Below the pieces are notes generated by a model that was not told the origin of the DNA, made no database searches, and saw only the letters and a program-made list of their open reading frames with translations. 64,000 bases of DNA from Microcella sp. (GTDB taxonomy: Bacteria; Actinomycetota; Actinomycetes; Actinomycetales; Microbacteriaceae), in the NCBI RefSeq assembly GCF_019739195.1, contig NZ_JAHHDS010000003.1, positions 186,001-250,000 on the forward strand. Reading direction: 5' to 3'. Each line of letters starts with the position of its first letter. Positions within the stretch are counted from its first letter, which is position 1. Positions 1,214-31,701 of the stretch are shown here, in pieces. The position numbers were made by a program, and so were the translations under genes.

Positions 1214-2050
1214 TCACACGAGGTCGAGGGCGGCCCGCATCGCCGCCTCGACCCCGGACTCGTCGTCGAGCGGCACCTCGGTCTGTCCGGAGACGAAGAA
1301 CCGCACCTGGCGCACGGCCTGGTGCAACAGCATGTCGCGCCCCGATGCCACGCGCCCGCCGACCTCGAGCCACTGCGCGGCGAGCGGCCCCGGCCACGGG
1401 TGGTACGTGACGTCAAGAGCCACCGCGCTCGTGCGGGCGTCGAACGGCAGCGGCTGATGCAGGCCGACCCCATTGGGCAGAGTCCACGCCACGACATCGC
1501 ATTCGTCGACGACCTGGTCGAGGTCGGTGAGCCGCACGACGTCGAGTTCGAGGCCGAGTCGGTCGCCGAGCGTGACCATTGCCTGTGCACGAGCAGGCTC
1601 GCGCACCGCGAGCACGGCGCTACGCAGCCCGAGGCCTTCGAGCGCGACGAGCACGGATCGCGCCGTCGCGCCCGCCCCGACGATCACAGCGTGCTCGGCC
1701 GTCACCACCCCGGCATCGCGCAGGGCGCGCTCGATGCCCGCCACATCGGTGTTGCGCACCCGGCGAACTCCATCGTCGTCGAGCAGCAGGGTGTTGGCGG
1801 CACCGGTCAGCATGCTCGCGATATCGCGCTCGTCGGCCAGGGCGAGCAGTTCTTCTTTGAGGGGCATCGTCGCCGAGAGACCACGCCAGCTCGAGTCGAG
1901 ACCGTCGACAAAGCCGGCGAGCTCAGCCTCGCGCACCTCGTGACGCTCGTAGACCCAGTCGAGGCCGAGGTGCTGGTACGCGGCGGTGTGCAGTGTGGGC
2001 GACAGCGAGTGAGCGACCGGAGACCCGAGTACTGCGAGACGCCTACGCAC
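1214..2050 (-). CDS. aroE: Shikimate dehydrogenase (NADP+)
   Basis: Reduces 3-dehydroshikimate to shikimate. The product is 278 residues, the normal family length. It shows the substrate-binding SLSPTLH motif near residue 15, the MPLK segment carrying the catalytic lysine, the GAANTL and NTDVAGI motifs, and the nucleotide-binding glycine loop GAGATARSV in the C-terminal half. I chose the GTG at 2050 because the family starts a few residues before the first beta strand (RRLAVLGSP). The reading frame stays open further upstream, but that part is antisense-like and lies inside mltG. The gene overlaps the 3' end of mltG by 8 bp, so translational coupling is likely. Confidence 0.95.
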
Positions 2051-3305
2051 AGTAGACGGCGTTCTCGTCGCTCGCGCGGCACCAGGCCCGCAGCTGAGCA
2101 ACACCCTCCTCATGCTGACGAAGAGTCTCAGAGAACTTGGTTTCTCCCGTGGCCAGGTTAACTGTGACGAAGAAGAACCAGGGCCCGTCGGCGGGGTTGA
2201 GCACCGCGTCGATCGCCACGTCTCCCGGTGCCGCGATCGGGCCGATCGGCAGCCCGGTGATGACGTAGGTGTTGTAGGGGTTGTCGGCATCCAGCGCATC
2301 GCCGCTCGACCAGACGGAGCCGGTCTCGCCAGCGCCGTACTGCGTGGCCGAGTCGAACTCGAGGCGCCAGCCATCGGCCAGGCGGTTCTCGATGACGCGC
2401 GACACCCGGTAGAAGTCGTCTGCGAGGCGTGCTTCGCGCTGAATCAGCGATGCCTTGGTGAGCACGGTGTGACGATCGGCCTCAGCGACCCCTGCCGCGT
2501 CGAGCCGTCGGAACATCTCGTCGACCAGGGTGCGGATATGGTCTTCAGCCGTGGTGTTCGGCTCGAACGTATACGTGGCCGGGAACATGTAGCCCTCGAT
2601 GTTGGGCGCTTCGGCAGGGATGCCGTAGATCGAGGGGTCGGCAATGGCGGCCTCGTACTCGTCCAGGGGGATCCCGGTCCCGGCGGAGAGTGCCTCGATG
2701 ACCTCGCCAGCACGCAAACCCTCGCGCACGGTCGCGCTGAACTCCACCTTGTTCGCGGGGTCGAGCAAGGCATCCAGCGCCGACTGCGCCGACATCTCCT
2801 CCTGCAGACGGTAGGTACCGGGGATGAACTGGATCGTCGAGTCGGCGAGCAGCAGGTCGTAGAAGGCCTCGAAGGTCATCGTGACACCCTGCTCGACGAG
2901 CGAGTCGGCCACATCGGCCCCGATCTCGCCGCTGTAGATGGTCACGAACACCTCGGTGCCGTTTCCGGTTCCCTCGAAGTCGTTCGGCAGTTCCCAGCCA
3001 AGCAGTTCGCGCACCTGAGACTCGTAATTGGTCCAGACGTACCAGGTGCCGGCCGCGCCGACGCCAAGCAGCAGCGCGAGAATGCCGAGCACGACCCAGG
3101 GCCAGCGGCGGCGACGGCGCGGGGGGCGCGCAGTCGAGCCCTTCGAGCGGGAGCCGCGCCCCTCGCTCTCGCGCGCTGCCCGACGACTCTGCGGAGCCCC
3201 CTCATCGGTCTGCACCGCTGCCGGCGTCGCGCCCGAGCGCGGGGCATCGTCGGCCGCGGACGGCTGAGGGCGAAAGATGTCGTCCCAGTTGTCGTTCTCA
3301 GTCAC
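2043..3305 (-). CDS. mltG: Endolytic murein transglycosylase MltG
   Basis: A membrane-bound lytic transglycosylase thought to cut nascent glycan strands and so end peptidoglycan polymerisation. The 420 residues comprise an acidic/proline-rich then very basic cytoplasmic N-terminus (residues 1-68), one membrane helix (about 69-92) and an extracytoplasmic YceG domain. The catalytic glutamate sits in the segment LIQREARLADDFYRVS, aligned with the EKETA region of the E. coli enzyme, and is followed by VIENRL. The long charged N-terminal tail is typical of actinobacterial MltG. The gene lies between ruvX (8 bp upstream) and aroE (overlap) in one operon. Confidence 0.95.
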   Translation of the reverse strand: MTENDNWDDIFRPQPSAADDAPRSGATPAAVQTDEGAPQSRRAARESEGRGSRSKGSTARPPRRRRRWPWVVLGILALLLGVGAAGTWYVWTNYESQVRELLGWELPNDFEGTGNGTEVFVTIYSGEIGADVADSLVEQGVTMTFEAFYDLLLADSTIQFIPGTYRLQEEMSAQSALDALLDPANKVEFSATVREGLRAGEVIEALSAGTGIPLDEYEAAIADPSIYGIPAEAPNIEGYMFPATYTFEPNTTAEDHIRTLVDEMFRRLDAAGVAEADRHTVLTKASLIQREARLADDFYRVSRVIENRLADGWRLEFDSATQYGAGETGSVWSSGDALDADNPYNTYVITGLPIGPIAAPGDVAIDAVLNPADGPWFFFVTVNLATGETKFSETLRQHEEGVAQLRAWCRASDENAVYCA

Positions 3306-3774: not shown

Positions 3775-6432
3775 CTAGTGCCGCAGCTGCGCGAGCACAG
3801 CCTCGATCGCCGCGGGGATCGCCGACGGGTCGGCGCCCCCGCCCTGGGCGAGGTCGTCCTTACCGCCGCCGCCCCCGCCGAGCACCGCCGAGGCCGCACG
3901 CGCGAGCACGCCCGCCTTCGCTCCGGCGTCGCGCGCCGTGGCAGTCGTGGCGACGATGACGGCCGCCTTGCCCCCCACCTCGGCGGCGAGCACGACCACA
4001 GAGGCCGTGTCACTGATGCGGCCGCGCACGGTGGTCGCGAGTGTGCGCAGATCATCGGAGTTCGACAGGGTGCCGACGTTGTCGGCGATCACCGATACGG
4101 CGCCGACAGGTGTGGCAGACGCCAGCAGTGCCGGAACCCGCTCGGTCAGTCGCGCCGACTCGAACTGCGCCACGGCCTTCTCGGCGGCCTTGAGTTGCGC
4201 ACTGAGGTCGGCCACGCGCTCGGCCAATTGGTCGCGCGGCGTCTTGAGCGTGCTCGTCAGCTGCTGCACGAGAGCCCGCTCAGCCGCGAACTCACGGAAG
4301 GCCTCGAAGCCGACGAGGGCCTCGACCCGTCGATTCGTCGACCCGACTGACGACTCGCTGACGAGACTGATCATGCCGATCTCAGCCGACGAGCCCACGT
4401 GGGTGCCCGCGCAGAGCTCGCGCGACCAGGGGCCACCGATGTCGACAACCCGCACCTCGTCGCCGTACTTCTCGCCGAAGAGCGCCATGGCGCCGAGCGC
4501 CTTGGCCTCGTCGAGCGGCAGCACCCGCGTCTCGACGGGCAGGTTGTCGCGCACGGCGAGATTGCTAATCTCTTCGATCTCGCTGCGCGTTGCCGGGCTC
4601 AGAGCCTGGTTCCAGCTGAAGTCGAGCCGCATGTAGCCGGCCTTGTTGTACGAGCCCGACTGGTGCGCGTCATGCCCGAGCGTCTGACGAAGCGCAGCGT
4701 GGATGACGTGCGTCGCGGAGTGCGCCTGCGTCGCCGATCGACGCCACTGCCGGTCAACCTTCGTCGTCGCCACCGCCCCGACCTCGACCTGGCCGTGCAC
4801 GACCTGCACGCGGTGGCTCACGAGCCCCTTGACGGGGCGCTGCACGTCGAGCACCTCGAGCTCGTAGCCGCTGCCGACGATGAGGCCCTCGTCAGACTCT
4901 TGGCCGCCCGACTCGGCGTAGAGCGTCGTCTCGGCGAGGATCACCTCGGCCAGGTCTCCCGCATGGGCCACCGGAACACTCGCGCCGTCGACGATGATGC
5001 CGAGCACGCGGGTCTCGGTCTCGAGCGCCTCGTAGCCCAAGAACTGCGTCTCTCCGTGCGCGCGGAACTCGCCATAGACCGAGAGGTCGGCGAGAGCGCC
5101 CTTCTTCGACTTCGCGTCGGCCTTCGCGCGGGTGCGCTGCTCGGCCATGAGTCGGTCGAACGCCTCACGATCGACCGCGAGACCGTTCTCTTCAGCCATC
5201 TCGAGCGTGAGATCGAGCGGAAACCCGAAGGTGTCGTGCAGCTGGAAGACCGTGTCGCCCGCGAGCGTCGTGCCGCCCGACTTCGTGGTCTCGGCCACCG
5301 CGAGGTCGAGAATCGTCGTGCCCGCAGCGAGCGTGCGCAAGAAGGCGTCTTCTTCGCCGAGTGCGAGACGCGAGACGCGGTCGTAGTTCTGGGCGACCTC
5401 GGGGTAGGCGGCGCTCATGGCATCGCGCGAGGCGGCGAACAGCACCTCGAAGCTCGGCGCATCCACACCGAGCAGGCGCATCGCCCGCACACTGCGTCGC
5501 AGCAGGCGGCGCAAGATGTAACCGCGCCCCTCGTTGCCGGGCGCGACGCCATCGGTCATGAGCATGAGGCCGCTGCGCACGTGATCGGCGATCACACGCA
5601 TGCGCACATCGTCGTCGTGGTCGGCACCGTAGCGGCGACCGGAGAGCTCGGCAGCAGCATCCAGAACCGGACGCACCTGGTCGATCTCGTACATGTTCTC
5701 GACGCCCTGCAGCAAGAAGGCCACCCGCTCCATGCCCATGCCGGTGTCGATATTCTTGCTCGGCAGCTCGCCAAGAATCTCGAAGTCACCCTTGCCCGTG
5801 CCCGCGCCGCGCAGGTACTGCATGAAGACGAGATTCCAGATCTCGACGTAGCGGTCGTCGTCGGTGGCGGGGCCGCCGTCGATGCCGTACGAAGGACCGC
5901 GGTCGAAGAAGATCTCGCTGCACGGCCCGGCCGGCCCTGGCTGGCCCGTCGACCAGTAGTTGGTATCCATGCCGAGGCGCTGGATGCGCTCGTCGGGCAG
6001 ACCGGCGATCTTCTTCCAGAGCGCGATCGCCTCGTCATCGTCTTCGTAGACGGTGACCCACAGGTCTTTCTCGTCAAACCCGAGACCGCCGTCGGCCTGC
6101 GCCGAGGTCAGCAGTTCCCACGCGTACCCGATCGCGCCCTCTTTGAAGTAGTCGCCGAACGAGAAGTTGCCGTTCATCTGAAAGAAGGTGCCGTGGCGGG
6201 GCGTCTTGCCCACTTCTTCGATGTCGTTGGTGCGAATGCACTTCTGCACGCTCGTGGCGCGCGGGTAGGGCGCCGGCACGACGCCGGTCAGGTACGGCAC
6301 GAAGGGCACCATGCCTGCGACCGTGAACAGCAACGTCGGGTCGTCGCTGACGAGCGAAGCGGAGGGCACGACCGTGTGACCGCGAGTACCGAAGTAGTCG
6401 AGCCACCGGCGTTGGATGTCGGCGGTCTGCAT
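3775..6432 (-). CDS. alaS: Alanine--tRNA ligase
   Basis: Charges tRNA-Ala. The 885 residues contain the class II catalytic core at the N-terminus (the opening DYFGTRGHTVVPSASL is typical), then the tRNA-binding region. The editing domain has zinc-binding HSATH and CAGTHVG motifs that deacylate mischarged Ser/Gly-tRNA. The C-terminal DHHA1 domain contains the glycine-rich GGGGGGKDDLAQGGG element. Length is normal for the family. It is the first gene of the alaS-ruvX-mltG-aroE run and starts 53 bp downstream of the small membrane protein gene. Confidence 0.98.
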   Translation of the reverse strand: MQTADIQRRWLDYFGTRGHTVVPSASLVSDDPTLLFTVAGMVPFVPYLTGVVPAPYPRATSVQKCIRTNDIEEVGKTPRHGTFFQMNGNFSFGDYFKEGAIGYAWELLTSAQADGGLGFDEKDLWVTVYEDDDEAIALWKKIAGLPDERIQRLGMDTNYWSTGQPGPAGPCSEIFFDRGPSYGIDGGPATDDDRYVEIWNLVFMQYLRGAGTGKGDFEILGELPSKNIDTGMGMERVAFLLQGVENMYEIDQVRPVLDAAAELSGRRYGADHDDDVRMRVIADHVRSGLMLMTDGVAPGNEGRGYILRRLLRRSVRAMRLLGVDAPSFEVLFAASRDAMSAAYPEVAQNYDRVSRLALGEEDAFLRTLAAGTTILDLAVAETTKSGGTTLAGDTVFQLHDTFGFPLDLTLEMAEENGLAVDREAFDRLMAEQRTRAKADAKSKKGALADLSVYGEFRAHGETQFLGYEALETETRVLGIIVDGASVPVAHAGDLAEVILAETTLYAESGGQESDEGLIVGSGYELEVLDVQRPVKGLVSHRVQVVHGQVEVGAVATTKVDRQWRRSATQAHSATHVIHAALRQTLGHDAHQSGSYNKAGYMRLDFSWNQALSPATRSEIEEISNLAVRDNLPVETRVLPLDEAKALGAMALFGEKYGDEVRVVDIGGPWSRELCAGTHVGSSAEIGMISLVSESSVGSTNRRVEALVGFEAFREFAAERALVQQLTSTLKTPRDQLAERVADLSAQLKAAEKAVAQFESARLTERVPALLASATPVGAVSVIADNVGTLSNSDDLRTLATTVRGRISDTASVVVLAAEVGGKAAVIVATTATARDAGAKAGVLARAASAVLGGGGGGKDDLAQGGGADPSAIPAAIEAVLAQLRH

Positions 6433-6485
6433 GAGGGGCTGTGGCGTCCTGAGTCGAGAGTGGGCGGGGCACGGGGCCCCGCCGG

Positions 6486-6713
6486 TTACTTGAGGCGGCT
6501 AGTGAGGTCGGCGATGGTGTCTTCGGCCTCGGCGACGGCCGCGCGAAGCTCGGCTTCGCGCGCCTTGTACCCGTCGACGACCGCCGCACCGAACTCTTTG
6601 GCCTTCGCGTCGACGTCGTCGAAGAACTGGGCGCCCTGCGGCGTGCGCGAGACCTGGTGGGCGGCGACGAAGCCGATGCCGATGCCGGCGATGAGCCAGA
6701 TGACGTTCTTCAT
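6486..6713 (-). CDS. Small single-pass membrane protein, function unknown
   Basis: 75 residues. An N-terminal hydrophobic segment (about residues 3-19, glycine-rich) is followed by a charged, alanine-rich, probably alpha-helical tail from about residue 30 that ends in a short coiled-coil-like stretch (EAELRAAVAEAEDTIADL). I do not recognise a characterised family. The layout resembles small YtxH-like envelope proteins, but this is only a resemblance. The ATG at 6713 has a GAGGGAG ribosome-binding site. It lies between rpsD and alaS on the same strand and may share their transcription. Confidence 0.7.
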   Translation of the reverse strand: MKNVIWLIAGIGIGFVAAHQVSRTPQGAQFFDDVDAKAKEFGAAVVDGYKAREAELRAAVAEAEDTIADLTSRLK

Positions 6714-6813
6714 GAGTGCTCCCTCTCGGTGGGGTCGATGTGGTGGCCCGCCCGCGAACGGGCAGAGACCCAGCCTAGCGGCCACGGCTCCGGCAGCGAA
6801 CGGGGCCAGACAG

Positions 6814-6850
6814 CGAACGGGGGCCCGACCAGTGGCCGGACCCCCGTTCG
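6814..6850 (-). terminator. Stem-loop terminator downstream of rpsD
   Basis: A perfect 10-bp GC-rich inverted repeat (6814-6823 with 6841-6850, CGAACGGGGG and its complement) encloses a 17-nt loop. It begins 21 bp after the rpsD stop codon. There is no clear uridine run, as is common in high-GC actinobacteria, so efficiency is uncertain. Confidence 0.6.
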
Positions 6851-6871
6851 ACGGAGCGTGTGCGCGTGCGA

Positions 6872-7501
6872 CTAGCGCGCTGCGTAGTACTCGACGACGA
6901 GCTGCACTTCGCAGGTCACGGGAACCTCGGCGCGCTTGGGGCGACGCACGAGCCGCGACTGCAGCTTGTCGAGCTCGACCTCGAGGTAGGCCGGAACCTT
7001 GGGCAGCACGTCGACGTGACCGCCGGCAGCGGCGACCTGGAACGGCTCGGTGCCCTCGGAGCGCGGCTTCACGTGGATGAGCTGACCCGGCTTGACGCGG
7101 AACGACGGGCGGTCGACAAGCTGGCCGTCGACCATGATGTGGCGGTGCACGACCATCTGGCGCGCCTGCGCCGTGGTGCGCGCGAAGCCCGAGCGCAGCA
7201 CGAGAGCGTCGAGACGCATCTCGAGCAGCTCGACCAGGTTCTCACCGGTCAGGCCGGCCGAGCGACGGGCCTCGTTGAACGCGATCTTGAGCTGGGCCTC
7301 GCGGATGCCGTACTGGGCACGAAGGCGTTGCTTCTCGCGCAGACGAACGGCGTAGTCGCTGTCGGCCTTGCGCTTGGTGCGGCCGTGCTCACCGGGAGCG
7401 TAGGGGCGCTTCTCGAGGTACTTGGCGGCCTTCGGGGTGAGGGCAATGCCGAGCGCGCGCGAGAGACGGGTTTTGCTGCGAGTACGTGACTTAGTAGACA
7501 C
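6872..7501 (-). CDS. rpsD: 30S ribosomal protein S4
   Basis: A primary 16S rRNA-binding protein needed to nucleate assembly of the 30S body and involved in decoding accuracy. The 209 residues match the family length. The N-terminal S4 domain (RLSRALGIALTPKAAKYLEKRPYAPGEHG) is followed by the S4 RNA-binding motif (MRLDALVLRSGFARTTAQARQMVVHRHIMVDG). The gene is monocistronic here rather than in the alpha operon, which is usual for many actinobacteria. An approximately 190-bp non-coding stretch upstream (7502-7694) presumably carries its promoter and leader. I saw no recognisable riboswitch there. Confidence 0.98.
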   Translation of the reverse strand: MSTKSRTRSKTRLSRALGIALTPKAAKYLEKRPYAPGEHGRTKRKADSDYAVRLREKQRLRAQYGIREAQLKIAFNEARRSAGLTGENLVELLEMRLDALVLRSGFARTTAQARQMVVHRHIMVDGQLVDRPSFRVKPGQLIHVKPRSEGTEPFQVAAAGGHVDVLPKVPAYLEVELDKLQSRLVRRPKRAEVPVTCEVQLVVEYYAAR

Positions 7502-25540: not shown

Positions 25541-26728
25541 TCAGCCGACGAGCATCGACCAGGCGTCGATGGTCCGCGCCATCCACTCCCGCACCACAGG
25601 TCGGTCGAATGCGGCGAGCCACGCGAGAGCAACCTGGCCCAGAGCAACGGCATCGACCAGCACATTCGAGCTGATCGTGCGTGCAGAAGGGATGATGGCG
25701 ATGGCGAGAAGCGTCAGGATCGCGAAGTTCACCCCCGCTGCGGCAGGGTGGAAGACCCCCAGCACGAAGGCGATGTTGAGCAGCAGGAAGACGATCGTCG
25801 ACACCGCAATGGTGCGAGGCCGCCGCACGATGACCGCGACGAGCCATGCACTGGCGAGCTGAGCGGCGATGAGCCAGCCGGTCGGGGTCGCGTACCGCAC
25901 GACGAGCTCAGACAACCCCGGTGCGATGCTGCCGATGATCACCTCGACGTCGCTCGTCGGCCACGGCGTGCCGAAGAACAGGATGTTCAAGAAGGCAATG
26001 GTCGCGAAAGCCCCGAGGGTGGGGAAGGCGATGACGAGCATGTTCGCGGCGCGCAGCCCCGGCGCTGCGGCCCGACCGTGCCGGAGGAACGGCGAGGCGA
26101 GCACGATGATCACCGCGAAGAGGATGCCCGAGGGGTCGCTGAAGGCGGCGAGCATGATGAGGATCCCGCCCCGGAACCCCGACTCGGTGTTGCCCCAGTT
26201 CACAAAGCGCACGACGTCGCCCAGTGCCAGCCCGAAGAAGGTCAGGGCCAGGAATCCGGGCAGGTTCTCGAGCGCGAAATAGGCGAACAACGGGTTCGCG
26301 GCGAGGGCGATGATGAGAATGATGCCCGTCGACCGCGGAATCGCGCGCTGCGCGATGATCTCCGCCACTTTCTGCAGCAGGAATCCCGCGGCGATGGCAC
26401 CCATCAGGCTCAGGCCGAGGCGTCCGAACGGGTTGGCGGCGGCGAGCATGATCGACACGTGCGGGTAGAGCAGCGCGAGCCACTCGGCGTCTCCGCGGTT
26501 CCAGTCGATGCTGGCGAGGCTCGCGACCAGGTCGGCATTCGGAGTGTCGGCAGGCGCGGGCAGCAGCGAGTGCAGCAGCGCGAGGAGCGCGAGAGGGGTC
26601 GCGAGTCCGAGACGGAGCATCCACCTTGCCACAGGGCCCCGCGGGAACGCGTCGAATCGGGTTCGCGGCGGCGCACCGCGGTTGCTGCGATCGCGCCGCA
26701 GTGCGGGGGCTTCAATGGTGCTGGACAT
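25541..26728 (-). CDS. Polytopic membrane protein paired with the GT2 synthase, possibly GT-C-like
   Basis: 395 residues with about nine to ten predicted membrane helices, the first near residues 40-56 after a basic N-terminal tail. The first extracytoplasmic loop carries acidic residues (SIDWNRGDAEWLALLYPHVSIM), an arrangement reminiscent of GT-C lipid-phosphate-sugar transferases, but no signature is decisive. It overlaps the GT2 gene by 17 bp, so the two are almost surely made together. Export or completion of the same polysaccharide is the natural inference. No recognised family name can be given with confidence. Confidence 0.75.
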   Translation of the reverse strand: MSSTIEAPALRRDRSNRGAPPRTRFDAFPRGPVARWMLRLGLATPLALLALLHSLLPAPADTPNADLVASLASIDWNRGDAEWLALLYPHVSIMLAAANPFGRLGLSLMGAIAAGFLLQKVAEIIAQRAIPRSTGIILIIALAANPLFAYFALENLPGFLALTFFGLALGDVVRFVNWGNTESGFRGGILIMLAAFSDPSGILFAVIIVLASPFLRHGRAAAPGLRAANMLVIAFPTLGAFATIAFLNILFFGTPWPTSDVEVIIGSIAPGLSELVVRYATPTGWLIAAQLASAWLVAVIVRRPRTIAVSTIVFLLLNIAFVLGVFHPAAAGVNFAILTLLAIAIIPSARTISSNVLVDAVALGQVALAWLAAFDRPVVREWMARTIDAWSMLVG

Positions 26729-28592
26729 GAGTCGTCAGACCGTGTTCGGTCTTCTCCCAGTAGTGCGGGTTGGTGAGCAGCTGCCACAGCGCCTTGTACG
26801 ACGCGATCGAGTGCAGCAGCCAGTAGACGGGGTTCAGCAATGCCCAGAGCACGAGATAGAACGTGCCGCGCTTGTACGGTCCCATCATCGAGAGGTAGAT
26901 CATCACGACGTTGCCGATGACGAAGTTCAGCAGGGTGAGCCACAGCAGCCAGATCGGGAACAGGCCGGCGAGTGCGGTCACCGGCAGGAAGACCGTCAGC
27001 ACGGTGACGATGTAGAACGGGATCACCCCGAGGAAGGTCGCGGGCGTACCGGCGATGAGCAGCACGAAGCTCACGAATCGTCGCAGGCCGATCTGACGGA
27101 TGAGCGCCACCGGCTGCCGGGCGTGCACGAGGGTCGTCTGCATGTAGCCCTTGATCCAGCGGGAACGCTGCCGGATGAAGTTGGGTATCGAGGTGTTCGC
27201 CTCTTCCATCGTCGTCGAGTTGATGACGCCGACTCGGTAGCCGAGCGCGCTCGCGCGAATGCCGAGGTCGGCGTCTTCCGTCACGTTGTACGGGTCCCAG
27301 CCGCCAAGCTCGATGAGCGCCGAGGTGCGGAAGTGGTTCGAGGTGCCCCCGAGCGGAATCGGCAGATCGCCGAAGTCAAGCCCCGCCAGCATGTAGTCGA
27401 ACCAATAGCTGTACTCGAGGGTGAACATGCGAGTGAGCGCATTCTCGCGGTCATTGAAGTAGTTGAGAGAGGCCTGCAGGCACACCGTTTCTTCGCCGCC
27501 CCGCCGAAAAGCGACGACAGCCTTCTTCAACTGGTCGGGGTCAGGCGTGTCTTCGGCGTCGTAAATGACGAGGTAGTCGCCCGTCGCGAAGTACAAGCCC
27601 ACATTGCACGCGCGAGGCTTCGTCTGCGGGTGCCCCTTCGGGATCGTCACGATACGAAAGTGGGGTGGCGGCTTCGACGAGAGCACGGCATCCCGCGTCT
27701 CGTGGTCCTCCTCCTCGATGAGAATCAGAACCTCGAGCTTCTCGGTCGGGTAGTCCAGACCGCCGAGATTGCGAATGAGCTGGCCGACGATGTTGGCTTC
27801 GCGGAACACCGGTACGAGCACCGTGTACCGCGGAAGTTCGCGATCGATGAGCGCCTCGACCTGTGCACGGGTGATGCGCTCGACGACGTCATACCGCGCA
27901 CCACGCATCGCGACGAAGAACTTGAAGCTCGTGCCGGCGAGGAAGGTGACGCTCATGACCGTGAGCACGCCGATCGCGGTGGGAAGCGGCCAGAGCACGG
28001 CGCTCACGAGCAGCGCGACGGCGAGCACGGCGCCTCCGACCTTCTGGCCGCGGCTGAAAGTGACTCGCGCCGACATCTCCGGATTCTGCCGCCAGAGTTC
28101 GTTGGCTGCCTCGTCGGCGATCTCGGCGCGGAAGAGGCGCAGGCAGGCATTCTTGATGTCCCACGATGTCGTCGCGACAAACTGCAGCTCGGCGCCAGCG
28201 AGCAGGTGGCGGATGCGCTCGACACGCTCGGGCGCGACACCGCGTGCGGTCGCCACGAAGATGGTGCCTGCCGCATTGCGACGGATGGGCAGCCAGTTCT
28301 CGCTGATGTACGTCTGGCCAGAGACGCGCCGCACGAGCTCGTCGTCGAAGGTCACCGCGGCCAGGTCGATGGGATGAATGCCCCACGACTTCGCCTCGAC
28401 AAGCAGTAGAGATTCAGAATCGAGCAGGCCTTCGCTGATGAGCACCTGGTCGATATGAGCGCCCGTGCGCTGCTTGACCTGCCGCGCGAACTCGAGATTC
28501 TCTGGTGACACGAGGCCCGAGCGCAGCAACAGATCGGCGAACGCCTCGCTGTCGTTGACGCGCACGCCGCTTGTCTCTCCCCCCGGAGCCAT
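26712..28592 (-). CDS. Membrane glycosyltransferase 2 with N-terminal MshEN-like domain
   Basis: 626 residues. Residues about 16-160 resemble the GspE/MshE N-terminal domain, with two helical repeats (ADLLLRSGLVSPENLEFARQ and DQVLISEGLLDSESLLLVEA) and the strand segment IHPIDLAAV. Two membrane helices follow (about 186-226). The GT2 domain (255-480) has VPVFREA, the DAED metal site at 345-348, TED at 438-440 and QRSRW at 475-479, the QxxRW signature of processive synthases such as cellulose or hyaluronan synthase. Four more helices close the protein. MshEN domains of other proteins bind c-di-GMP. The substrate here is unknown. A leaderless-type promoter precedes the ATG. Confidence 0.88.
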   Translation of the reverse strand: MAPGGETSGVRVNDSEAFADLLLRSGLVSPENLEFARQVKQRTGAHIDQVLISEGLLDSESLLLVEAKSWGIHPIDLAAVTFDDELVRRVSGQTYISENWLPIRRNAAGTIFVATARGVAPERVERIRHLLAGAELQFVATTSWDIKNACLRLFRAEIADEAANELWRQNPEMSARVTFSRGQKVGGAVLAVALLVSAVLWPLPTAIGVLTVMSVTFLAGTSFKFFVAMRGARYDVVERITRAQVEALIDRELPRYTVLVPVFREANIVGQLIRNLGGLDYPTEKLEVLILIEEEDHETRDAVLSSKPPPHFRIVTIPKGHPQTKPRACNVGLYFATGDYLVIYDAEDTPDPDQLKKAVVAFRRGGEETVCLQASLNYFNDRENALTRMFTLEYSYWFDYMLAGLDFGDLPIPLGGTSNHFRTSALIELGGWDPYNVTEDADLGIRASALGYRVGVINSTTMEEANTSIPNFIRQRSRWIKGYMQTTLVHARQPVALIRQIGLRRFVSFVLLIAGTPATFLGVIPFYIVTVLTVFLPVTALAGLFPIWLLWLTLLNFVIGNVVMIYLSMMGPYKRGTFYLVLWALLNPVYWLLHSIASYKALWQLLTNPHYWEKTEHGLTTHVQHH

Positions 28593-29083: not shown

Positions 29084-29156
29084 GGGCGATTGGCGCAGTT
29101 GGTAGCGCGCTTCCTTCACACGGAAGAGGTCATCAGTTCGAGTCTGGTATCGCCCA
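29084..29156 (+). tRNA. tRNA-Val (anticodon CAC)
   Basis: A 73-nt cloverleaf on the opposite strand from the other three: acceptor GGGCGAT/ATCGCCC with discriminator A, anticodon stem CTTCC/GGAAG around loop TTCACAC, and T-arm ATCAG/CTGGT with one G-U pair. CCA follows in the DNA (29157-29159). It reads GTG. Acceptor and anticodon stems equal those of the GAC isoacceptor 360 bp away, so the pair likely arose by duplication. Confidence 0.95.
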
Positions 29157-29163
29157 CCACGAC

Positions 29164-30249
29164 CTATTCTTCCGCGTCGCCGGCCTTCGTCGCCTGCTGT
29201 GCGGCCGTCGTCGACCGACGTTCGGCGATCACGATGGCGATGAGCGCGGCCCCCGCGCACAGCAGTCCCGACCCGAATGCTCCGACCGCGACCGCGATCA
29301 CGGCTCCGAGCTGCGCGGCGACGAGCGCGGTCGAGCCCGTCGCGGCCATCCCGAAACCATCGGCAAGCAGCGCCAGCACGGTGCCTCCCACGGCGACCGC
29401 CACGATGATGCCGATCGACACGCGTCGTTCGACGATCGCCCCCGAGGGGGCGCGCACGACGATTGCCACCCCGGCTGCCGTGGCGATGACAGCCGTGGCG
29501 CCCAGGGCCGTCGGGGCCAGGAAAGGCACTCCGAGCCCGATAGCGCCCCAGGCAATGACGACACCCGTCGTCAGACCCGACGGTGAGAAGGGCCTACCCG
29601 CTATGCGCTCGATCAGCCACCACATCAGGGCACCCAGAACCAGGCCCACGATCGAGTTCGCGAGTGTTCTGCCCGTGGCCACGCTCAGCACGCGCTCTGC
29701 GCCCACCATCCACGCCGTGGCACCGACGGCCACGAGCCCGGCCGGCACCATCCCCCGGGGTCGGCTCAGCGCCGCCAGGTCGCTCACCACACGTCGACGA
29801 GGGCCCGGTAGCAGGGACGCAGCGATCATCGACGCCGAGGCCGCGACGTGGGTCGCGAGCACTGCCGAGAAGTCGACCGCGCCGAAGACGATCTGCACGA
29901 GCGAAGGCACCGAACCGACGGTGGCGGCGAACACCGGCTGGAAGACGAGCACCGACCAGAGGCTCGCGAAAACGGCGGCGCCGACGGGCCCGAAGCGGGC
30001 CGCGAGAATCGCCACCCCGCCAGCGATCGCTCCGGCGAACGATGCGTCGAGCACGCGGGCGGGCAGGTCGCTCGGGCTCGAGAGCACAGCATTCAGGGCC
30101 CACGAGGCGACCATGCCGACGACGACCGCGGCCGATGCACTCGCCGCTCGAGCCCGGATCGAGACCCTGTCGATCAGCAGGAGCCCTAGGGGAATCAGCA
30201 GCACGAGCAGCGCGGCGATGAGCTGGAGAGGCACATCGCTGGTCACCAT
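29164..30249 (-). CDS. Diverged ammonium-transporter (Amt) paralogue
   Basis: 361 residues and about 11 membrane helices. By eye it aligns with the adjacent Amt along its length: the N-terminal helix, the segment VDFSAVLATHVAAS against Amt IDYAGGTAVHINAG, and LANSIVGLVLGALMWWLIERI against TNTLVATAAAILGWLIVEKI. D126 and H134 keep the spacing of the Amt Asp-His pair (first pore histidine). The second pore histidine (H317 of the neighbour) is replaced, apparently by I282, and the FGWFGFNAG segment has become AWMVGAERV. The usual amphipathic C-terminal tail is missing. It follows amt by 97 bp, where glnK usually stands. Transport activity is doubtful, and a regulatory or scaffold role is inference. 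Confidence 0.75.
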   Translation of the reverse strand: MVTSDVPLQLIAALLVLLIPLGLLLIDRVSIRARAASASAAVVVGMVASWALNAVLSSPSDLPARVLDASFAGAIAGGVAILAARFGPVGAAVFASLWSVLVFQPVFAATVGSVPSLVQIVFGAVDFSAVLATHVAASASMIAASLLPGPRRRVVSDLAALSRPRGMVPAGLVAVGATAWMVGAERVLSVATGRTLANSIVGLVLGALMWWLIERIAGRPFSPSGLTTGVVIAWGAIGLGVPFLAPTALGATAVIATAAGVAIVVRAPSGAIVERRVSIGIIVAVAVGGTVLALLADGFGMAATGSTALVAAQLGAVIAVAVGAFGSGLLCAGAALIAIVIAERRSTTAAQQATKAGDAEE

Positions 30250-30281
30250 GACGTCAAACCTCCTTGCGCATAGACACCGAA

Positions 30282-30311
30282 GGGCGCTACCCCCTTGCGA
30301 GAGTAGCGCCC
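30282..30311 (-). terminator. Stem-loop between amt and the Amt paralogue
   Basis: A perfect 9-bp inverted repeat (GGGCGCTAC at 30282-30290 and its complement at 30303-30311) with a 12-nt loop, 35 bp after the amt stop. No uridine run follows, so it may be a partial terminator or an mRNA-stability stem that lowers expression of the downstream paralogue. Confidence 0.55.
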
Positions 30312-30346
30312 TGGAATCCCCCGAGAGGGATCGAGAAGTGCCGGTG

Positions 30347-31558
30347 TTACTTGGTCTCGAACACGTAGCTGGTCTCGCCGTGCACGATCGGGTCGATGCC
30401 CGCGATCTCGTCTTCTTCCTTGATGCGGAAGCCGATGGACTTCTCGATCGCGAAGCCGATGATGAAGGCGACCACGAACGAGTAGATCATCACACCGAAG
30501 GCGGCGATCGCCTGCACCGCGAGCTGACCGAGGTCGCCGCCCGTGAAGAGGCCGGTGTCGATCGCGAAGAAGCCCAGGTACAGGGTTCCGATGAGGCCAC
30601 CGACGAGGTGGATGCCGACGACGTCGAGCGAGTCGTCGAATCCGAGCTTGAACTTCAGCTCGATCGCGAGAGCGCACAGCACACCGGCAATGACACCCAG
30701 CAGCAGAGCCCAGCCCGGTGCGAGGTTGGCGCACGCCGGGGTGATGGCGACCAGACCAGCGATCGCACCCGAACCGGCGCCGACCGAGGTGGGCTTGCCG
30801 TCCTTGATCTTCTCGACGATGAGCCAGCCGAGAATCGCGGCGGCAGTGGCGACGAGCGTGTTGGTGACGATGAGGCCGACGAGCGCGAGGTCGTTGAGGA
30901 ACTCAGCGCCAGCGTTGAAGCCGAACCAGCCGAACCACAGGATGCCGGCGCCCAGCAGCACGAACGGCGGGTTGTGAGGCACGTGAGCACCCTTGGCGAA
31001 CCCGACCCGCTTGCCGAGCACGAGCGCGAGCGCCAGGGCCGCAGCACCGGCGTTGATGTGCACAGCCGTACCACCCGCGTAGTCGATGACGCCCGGGAGC
31101 CCGAGCGTGTTGCCGAGCTCGAGGATCCAGCCTCCGCCCCACACCCACGCGGCAACGGGGAAGTAGACGAGCGTCGCCCAGATGCCGGCGAAGATCATCC
31201 ACGAGCCGAACTTGGCCCGGTCGGCGATGGCACCTGAGATGAGCGCGACGGTGATGATCGCGAAGGTCGCGCCGAACGCAGCGCCTACAAGCGTCTCATT
31301 GTCGCCCGCGGCCGCCATGAGGCCGAAGTCTGAGAACGGGTTGCCGAACAGTTCGGTCGGTCCGCCGACGGCAGACATGTTGAACCCGTACAGCACCCAG
31401 AGGACGCTGATGAGGCCCATCGCGCCGAAGCTCATCATCATCATGCTGATGACGCTCTTGGCCTTGACGAGACCGCCATAGAAGAACGCGACGCCCGGGG
31501 TCATGAACAGAACCAGGGCGGTGGCCGTAATGGCCCAACTGAGTTCGCCGGTATCCAT
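30347..31558 (-). CDS. amt: Ammonium transporter
   Basis: 403 residues with 11 membrane helices and an extracytoplasmic N-terminus. The twin pore histidines are H167 (DYAGGTAVHINAG) and H317 (VVGIHLVGGLIGTLYLGFF). The FGWFGFNAGAEF segment and the C-terminal tail GIDPIVHGETSYVF, which couples subunits and meets PII proteins, are intact. A full GlnR operator lies about 105 bp upstream, and a GAGAGG ribosome-binding site precedes the ATG. No glnK or glnD gene follows. The next gene is a diverged Amt paralogue. Confidence 0.97.
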   Translation of the reverse strand: MDTGELSWAITATALVLFMTPGVAFFYGGLVKAKSVISMMMMSFGAMGLISVLWVLYGFNMSAVGGPTELFGNPFSDFGLMAAAGDNETLVGAAFGATFAIITVALISGAIADRAKFGSWMIFAGIWATLVYFPVAAWVWGGGWILELGNTLGLPGVIDYAGGTAVHINAGAAALALALVLGKRVGFAKGAHVPHNPPFVLLGAGILWFGWFGFNAGAEFLNDLALVGLIVTNTLVATAAAILGWLIVEKIKDGKPTSVGAGSGAIAGLVAITPACANLAPGWALLLGVIAGVLCALAIELKFKLGFDDSLDVVGIHLVGGLIGTLYLGFFAIDTGLFTGGDLGQLAVQAIAAFGVMIYSFVVAFIIGFAIEKSIGFRIKEEDEIAGIDPIVHGETSYVFETK

Positions 31559-31663
31559 CTGTTTCTACCTCTCATAGTGGAACGTGGGTCGTGACGGTCG
31601 GGTCAGGGGAACCCAGCACGACGGTCAGCCGTCGCGGTCACGTGCCCAGTGTTGAGGCAGGAG

Positions 31664-31701
31664 GTTTCAGCACCGGTGTCGCGATGTTTCCCCGGTGTTA
31701 C
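31664..31701 (-). promoter_or_regulatory. GlnR operator upstream of amt
   Basis: Read on the minus strand, four 5-mers are each spaced by 6 nt: GTAAC, GAAAC, ACACC and GAAAC. This matches the GlnR consensus (gTnAC-n6-GaAAC repeated), with only the third box imperfect. It lies between the mrp terminator and amt, about 105 bp before the ATG, which fits activation of amt under nitrogen limitation. The match is seen directly. GlnR control is known from Streptomyces and mycobacteria. Confidence 0.8.

Follow-up and report, generated by a model that had tools for sequence, protein, structure and literature searches.

The gene directly behind amt in this Microcella locus encodes a conserved, Amt-derived companion of the ammonium transporter. 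Its most likely role, which our analysis supports tentatively, would be that of a subunit in mixed trimers with Amt. The window, meaning the whole 64-kb stretch of DNA analysed, carries both genes on its reverse strand: amt, which encodes an intact ammonium transporter of 403 aa (30347..31558, −), and the paralogue, which encodes 361 aa (29164..30249, −). Both positions agree with those of the initial annotation. Literature listings and abstract openings contained no description of this paralogue.

The amt product was canonical. It matched PF00909 with 364.6 bits and TIGR00836 above the cut-off, alignment to AmtB revealed F99, D159, H167, W211, F214, H317 and the C-terminal tail, and it was the sole PF00909 match in its own genome. 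The 97-nt gap between the two genes folded at −45 kcal/mol (z −3.4, equalled by 1 of 200 shuffles), which bears out the stem-loop described earlier between them, a GC-rich 32-nt element at 30281..30312 (−). No T-run followed it in the window sequence. A nearly identical stem was seen 3' of amt in the congener G009, where it lies directly before a tRNA cluster. The paralogue is preceded by a Shine-Dalgarno-like AAGGAGG (30259..30265, −), 9 nt before its ATG. Its stop codon lies 4 nt from a convergent tRNA-Val(CAC) gene located with ARAGORN (29084..29159, +), a neighbour outside the amt/paralogue system, and a family 2 glycosyltransferase with an MshEN domain at its N-terminus is encoded at 26712..28592 (−). 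At five loci (L009, L011, L015, L085 and L094) the paralogue frame ends in ...WAIPDSN, an antisense reading of the following tRNA-Val gene, and the same codons and stop are present in G009. A C-terminus made of antisense tRNA is therefore little constrained.

When searched alone, the window paralogue went unmatched in Pfam, NCBIfam and PHROGs and among PDB sequences, and a profile of the paralogues of its genus likewise found no match among PDB sequences. BLASTP against the neighbouring Amt gave 27.7 bits (E 4e-4) over a collinear 147 aa around the Asp-His motif, a score that none of 200 local shuffles of Amt reached (highest 23.9) and that also exceeded the reversed Amt (20.8). Comparison by hhalign of a profile of 17 congeneric paralogues with an Amt profile gave 98% probability (E 2.2e-13, 244 columns). 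Four of these 17 matched PF00909 (best E 1.7e-4), and each of four other Pfam families was hit by a single member, with E no better than 0.19. Across the Microbacteriaceae, PF00909 was matched by 19 of 30 paralogues, with a best E of 5.6e-24 that possibly comes from L047, a less degenerate member of the set; no other Pfam family was matched by any of the 30 at E 0.01. Judged by sequence comparison, the paralogue is a descendant of Amt and a member of the Amt/Mep/Rh superfamily (PF00909), as the initial annotation had proposed. The profile search for an unrelated permease family, raised there as the alternative, returned PF00909 instead, and the profile-profile match and the Pfam scan of the 30 relatives rule such a permease out. 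Chance hydrophobic similarity is ruled out by the shuffles and by PF00909 being the lone family to pass E 0.01, and a scan of viral contigs found no viral source of the paralogues.

A structure model built from two orthologue sequences reached pLDDT 40 and pTM 0.22, too low to be informative. With Amt rows biasing the alignment, the values were pLDDT 53 and pTM 0.54 and the best matches were AmtB (TM ~0.6), a consistency check that depends on the Amt rows used. With Amt/AmtB (PF00909, TIGR00836) the paralogue shares common descent, the D160/G163 turn and conserved Gly and Trp positions, and its helix layout is consistent with that of Amt. It differs in its eroded twin-His, F215 gate and C-terminal tail, and in that the single-sequence Pfam search fails.

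Pore residues were compared in AmtB numbering. D126 and H134 of the window paralogue align with D160 and H168. Three losses had been described for this protein, and each was confirmed: Ile occupies the column of the second pore His, H318 (residue 281 or 282, the alignments being one position apart); VGATAWMVG stands in place of the FGWFGFNAG gate segment of Amt, with Trp at the F215 column; and the PII-binding C-terminal tail, which serves GlnK contact and subunit coupling, has no counterpart in the paralogue. Phe is still present at the F107 column, a point absent from the earlier description. All 57 first-copy Amts examined (L092 and L094, split between frames, excluded) possessed F107, D160, G163, H168, W212, F215, H318 and the tail. 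Among the 46 second copies classed as degenerate or intermediate, D160 was present in all 46, the E220-equivalent in 44 and G163 in 41; W212 was found in 17, F107 in two (the window paralogue being one) and F215 in none, Trp standing there in 31. Both H168 and H318 were retained in seven copies, the first only in eight, the second only in four and neither in 27. The claim that only the first pore pair is kept thus holds for the window protein, a first-His-only case, and fails across its relatives. The E220- and D224-equivalents were conserved at 0.96 and 0.88 of 25 genus representatives, the H168, H318, F107 and W212 columns varied widely among degenerate second copies, and the recruitment-site residues W148, S219 and F107 were mostly lost. 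These alignments suggest a family rule in which the D160 turn is conserved and the pore is free to vary, the fold being constrained and the pore not. Structural and mechanistic roles have both been proposed for D160 (excerpt of PMC10433425); since most copies have lost the twin-His, a structural role best accounts for the conservation of D160.

A single-sequence search with the window paralogue matched 18 of 25 other congeners, 0 of 11 Microbacteriaceae genomes of other genera and, among 23 order-level genomes, one protein, an Amt. All 18 congeneric matches sat 92-117 nt behind amt. Seven congeners did not match: G007 and G009 have amt without the paralogue (G009 read directly, G007 by ORF list), G012 and G025 have a fragmentary match alone behind amt, a contig edge falls in amt in G008 and G017, and G015 gave no match. 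Since G007 and G009 have amt without it, the paralogue is dispensable. These two clean absences (L131 in G007, L132 in G009) constitute natural deletions for comparison.

Profile searches drew on 249 Microbacteriaceae genomes, 76 genus representatives and fetched stretches. Of the 85 genera sampled, at least 25 had second copies of a degenerate or intermediate kind; this is a lower bound, as at most eight candidates were scored per genome of the 249 and the loci were chosen, not randomly sampled. Adjacency to amt, a matter the initial annotation had left to a survey of the family, proved to be conserved. Forty-two of the 46 copies examined immediately followed amt in the same orientation, as did all eight full-length second copies (50 of 54 together), with gaps of 44-238 nt (median 103.5; n=54 loci, start codons picked by profile). 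The exceptions were two loci of g103, where the 7.0-7.5 kb read contained no amt, one of g61, where the 4 kb read had an unrelated frame upstream of the paralogue, and one of g44, where the second copy is at a contig start. In L110, a gene at 5586-7463 that by eye resembles the glycosyltransferase gene of the window follows the solitary paralogue, which suggests that in g103 amt was lost while the paralogue stayed in place. Beyond the family, an order-level search of 149 genomes (10 of them Microbacteriaceae, including that of the window) gave a match in 129; among the matches listed for the 139 others, all were open frames of more than 400 aa and no paralogue was recognised.

Full-length second copies occurred in seven genera, and genus g90 had both full-length and degenerate copies. 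Six of the eight (L099, L101, L107, L108, L109 and L119) carry Glu at H168, as do fungal Mep1/3 transporters (excerpt of PMC9040831). These six tandem copies thus share with the Mep1/3-type variants a naturally altered first pore His; such H168E proteins are full-length Amts with gates and tail, unlike the window paralogue.

Ten of 10 congeneric paralogue pairs had NG86 dN/dS of 0.10-0.42, with synonymous sites near saturation in some; nine matching Amt pairs had 0.02-0.23. By these ratios the paralogues are evolving fast but under purifying selection, and together with residue conservation (D160 in 46/46) they rule out a local pseudogene. In the tree the degenerate copies grouped together, nested within the Microbacteriaceae Amts, and a single clade took in all 17 (support 78/99; recovered in 76% of bootstrap trees), though long branches are involved. 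A constraint that groups the degenerate copy of g90 with full-length second copies from its own genus was not rejected (p-AU 0.34), so repeated degeneration is possible. By sequence comparison, the paralogue descends from a tandem duplicate of amt and has lost much of the conduction machinery, yet selection has kept it behind an amt that bears a GlnR-type box. Within the genus of the window, two Amt subtypes were paired with one paralogue lineage, so the paralogue was probably already in place when the amt next to it was replaced or converted. Identity to the window proteins was 0.71-0.95 for Amt and 0.36-0.82 for the paralogue in nine comparisons and was not parallel, a pattern that speaks against tight co-evolution of an interface.

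The GlnR-type box reported upstream of amt was present as a candidate site known from sequence. The window contained a single strict match to the GlnR box, GTAACACCGGGGAAAC (GTAAC-N6-GAAAC; 31686..31701, −, read from 31701 to 31686). With the pattern KTAAC-N6-GMAAC, built on the consensus in the excerpt of PMC10704036, two sites were found in the 2.88-Mb genome, one before amt and one before glnA. The backwards control pattern matched three times in the genome (one forward, two reverse), so the number of matches carries no significance by itself; it is the locations before amt and glnA that point to GlnR control. Among 35 first copies for which 150 nt or more of upstream sequence was available, 26 had a strict box; it preceded 0 of 40 degenerate second copies examined and two of the eight full-length second copies (L109 and L119). 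Expression of the paralogue is therefore most simply explained from the amt promoter.

Bacterial Amt proteins have their model in AmtB of E. coli, a homotrimer under regulation by the PII protein GlnK (excerpt of PMC10433425). In the amtB-glnK-glnD operon of Streptomyces and mycobacteria, a GlnR-controlled amt likewise comes first in the unit (excerpt of PMC10704036). The window differs in having an Amt derivative and no glnK after amt, in a family mostly without PII. A PF00543 match was found in 28 of 249 sampled Microbacteriaceae genomes; the other 221 had none, whether the paralogue was present or not, and single-amt genomes such as G026 and G029 also lacked it. The scarcity of GlnK is therefore family-wide and not tied to the paralogue, and the proposal that the paralogue replaces glnK was not upheld; a swap with glnK is ruled out, as PF00543 scarcity is unconnected to paralogue presence. 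Six genomes scored 89-101 bits and the other 22 scored 54-78 bits; in the three of the six that were compared (G121, G147 and G278), PF00543 lay within ~1 kb of an Amt match. DabA (PF10070) is a subunit of an inorganic carbon transporter. The single PF00543 protein in the genome of the window is encoded beside DabA (L024, 1492-1929(−) and 1812-3278(−), C3 at ~782 kb) and is probably a PII-like regulator of carbon uptake, not GlnK. First-copy Amts conserve the GlnK-contact tail (DEIAGID..VHGE.GY) although Microbacteriaceae are mostly without PII.

In line with one suggestion of the initial annotation, we tentatively favour a paralogue that conducts poorly or not at all and would join Amt in mixed trimers, much as RhCE pairs with RhAG. 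RhCE and RhD of the human Rh complex are not known to carry the twin-His. They provide the nearest working model, that of Rh-family paralogues in a trimer with the ammonium-transporting RhAG; they differ in belonging to the eukaryotic Rh branch, outside any operon, and in that the complex has been solved there (PDB 7uzq, RhAG-RhCE by its title), whereas a trimer of the paralogue with Amt is a proposal. Heterotrimer models of Rh with RhAG (excerpt of PMC3832391) and the inactive AMT1;1 D358N, which binds and inhibits AMT1 partners (excerpt of PMC9129087), have been described, and these precedents, together with the conserved linkage to amt, are what favour a mixed trimer. Under nitrogen scarcity, GlnR would switch on amt, and read-through past the stem-loop would yield a smaller amount of paralogue. 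Its product would keep the Amt fold and assemble with intact Amt, and the tail-less subunit could set the flux or stability of the trimer. More speculatively, in a family mostly without PII it might, through its stoichiometry, slow or tune the entry of ammonium. The fuller proposal of a dedicated non-conducting Amt subunit, which in Rh-complex-like mixed trimers tunes ammonium entry post-translationally where PII control of Amt has largely been lost, is a more doubtful one. Mixed trimers are somewhat disfavoured by the separation of the paralogue from amt in g103 and g61, by its absence from G007 and G009, by the weak structure models and by the retention of both pore His in 7 of 46 copies.

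The same separation would suit a stand-alone homotrimeric channel of Amt origin, neofunctionalised towards an altered selectivity (e.g. for NH3, CO2, small amines or K+). Its pore residues change and the gene does not die, the Trp that takes the place of F215 in 31 of 46 copies hints at a rebuilt constriction, and twin-His variants of AmtB alter kinetics and selectivity and can admit K+ (excerpt of PMC9040831). However, H168, H318, F107 and W212 vary too widely to give a consistent new pore motif, and 42 of the 46 copies examined immediately follow amt; we consider such a channel unlikely. An ammonium-sensing receptor, with an extracellular site around D160 and signalling via an unnamed partner, would account for an invariant D160 and conserved E220- and D224-equivalents where the pore is lost, and sensor or receptor Amts exist in the PDB by title (6eu6 and 8qj3). 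This appeared a poorer prospect, as W148, S219 and F107 are mostly not retained, the protein has no signalling domain, its C-terminal tail is lost and variable, and the role proposed for D160 is in part structural (excerpt of PMC10433425). A relic of tandem amt duplication, in slow decay and with no selected function, would fit the fast divergence, the absence from G007 and G009, the eroded pore and tail and the shorter copies L100, L104 and L105. It is nevertheless very improbable given dN/dS well below 1 in 10 of 10 pairs, open frames across 25 genera with D160 in 46 of 46 copies, and a clade that persists in the genus of the window and in several others.

That at least 25 genera of a family poor in PII keep, under selection, an Amt companion with a damaged pore makes the use of mixed Amt trimers by bacteria a directly testable question. 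The natural series of second copies, with H168E, one His or no His and all with D160, allows the requirements of the fold to be told apart from those of conduction.
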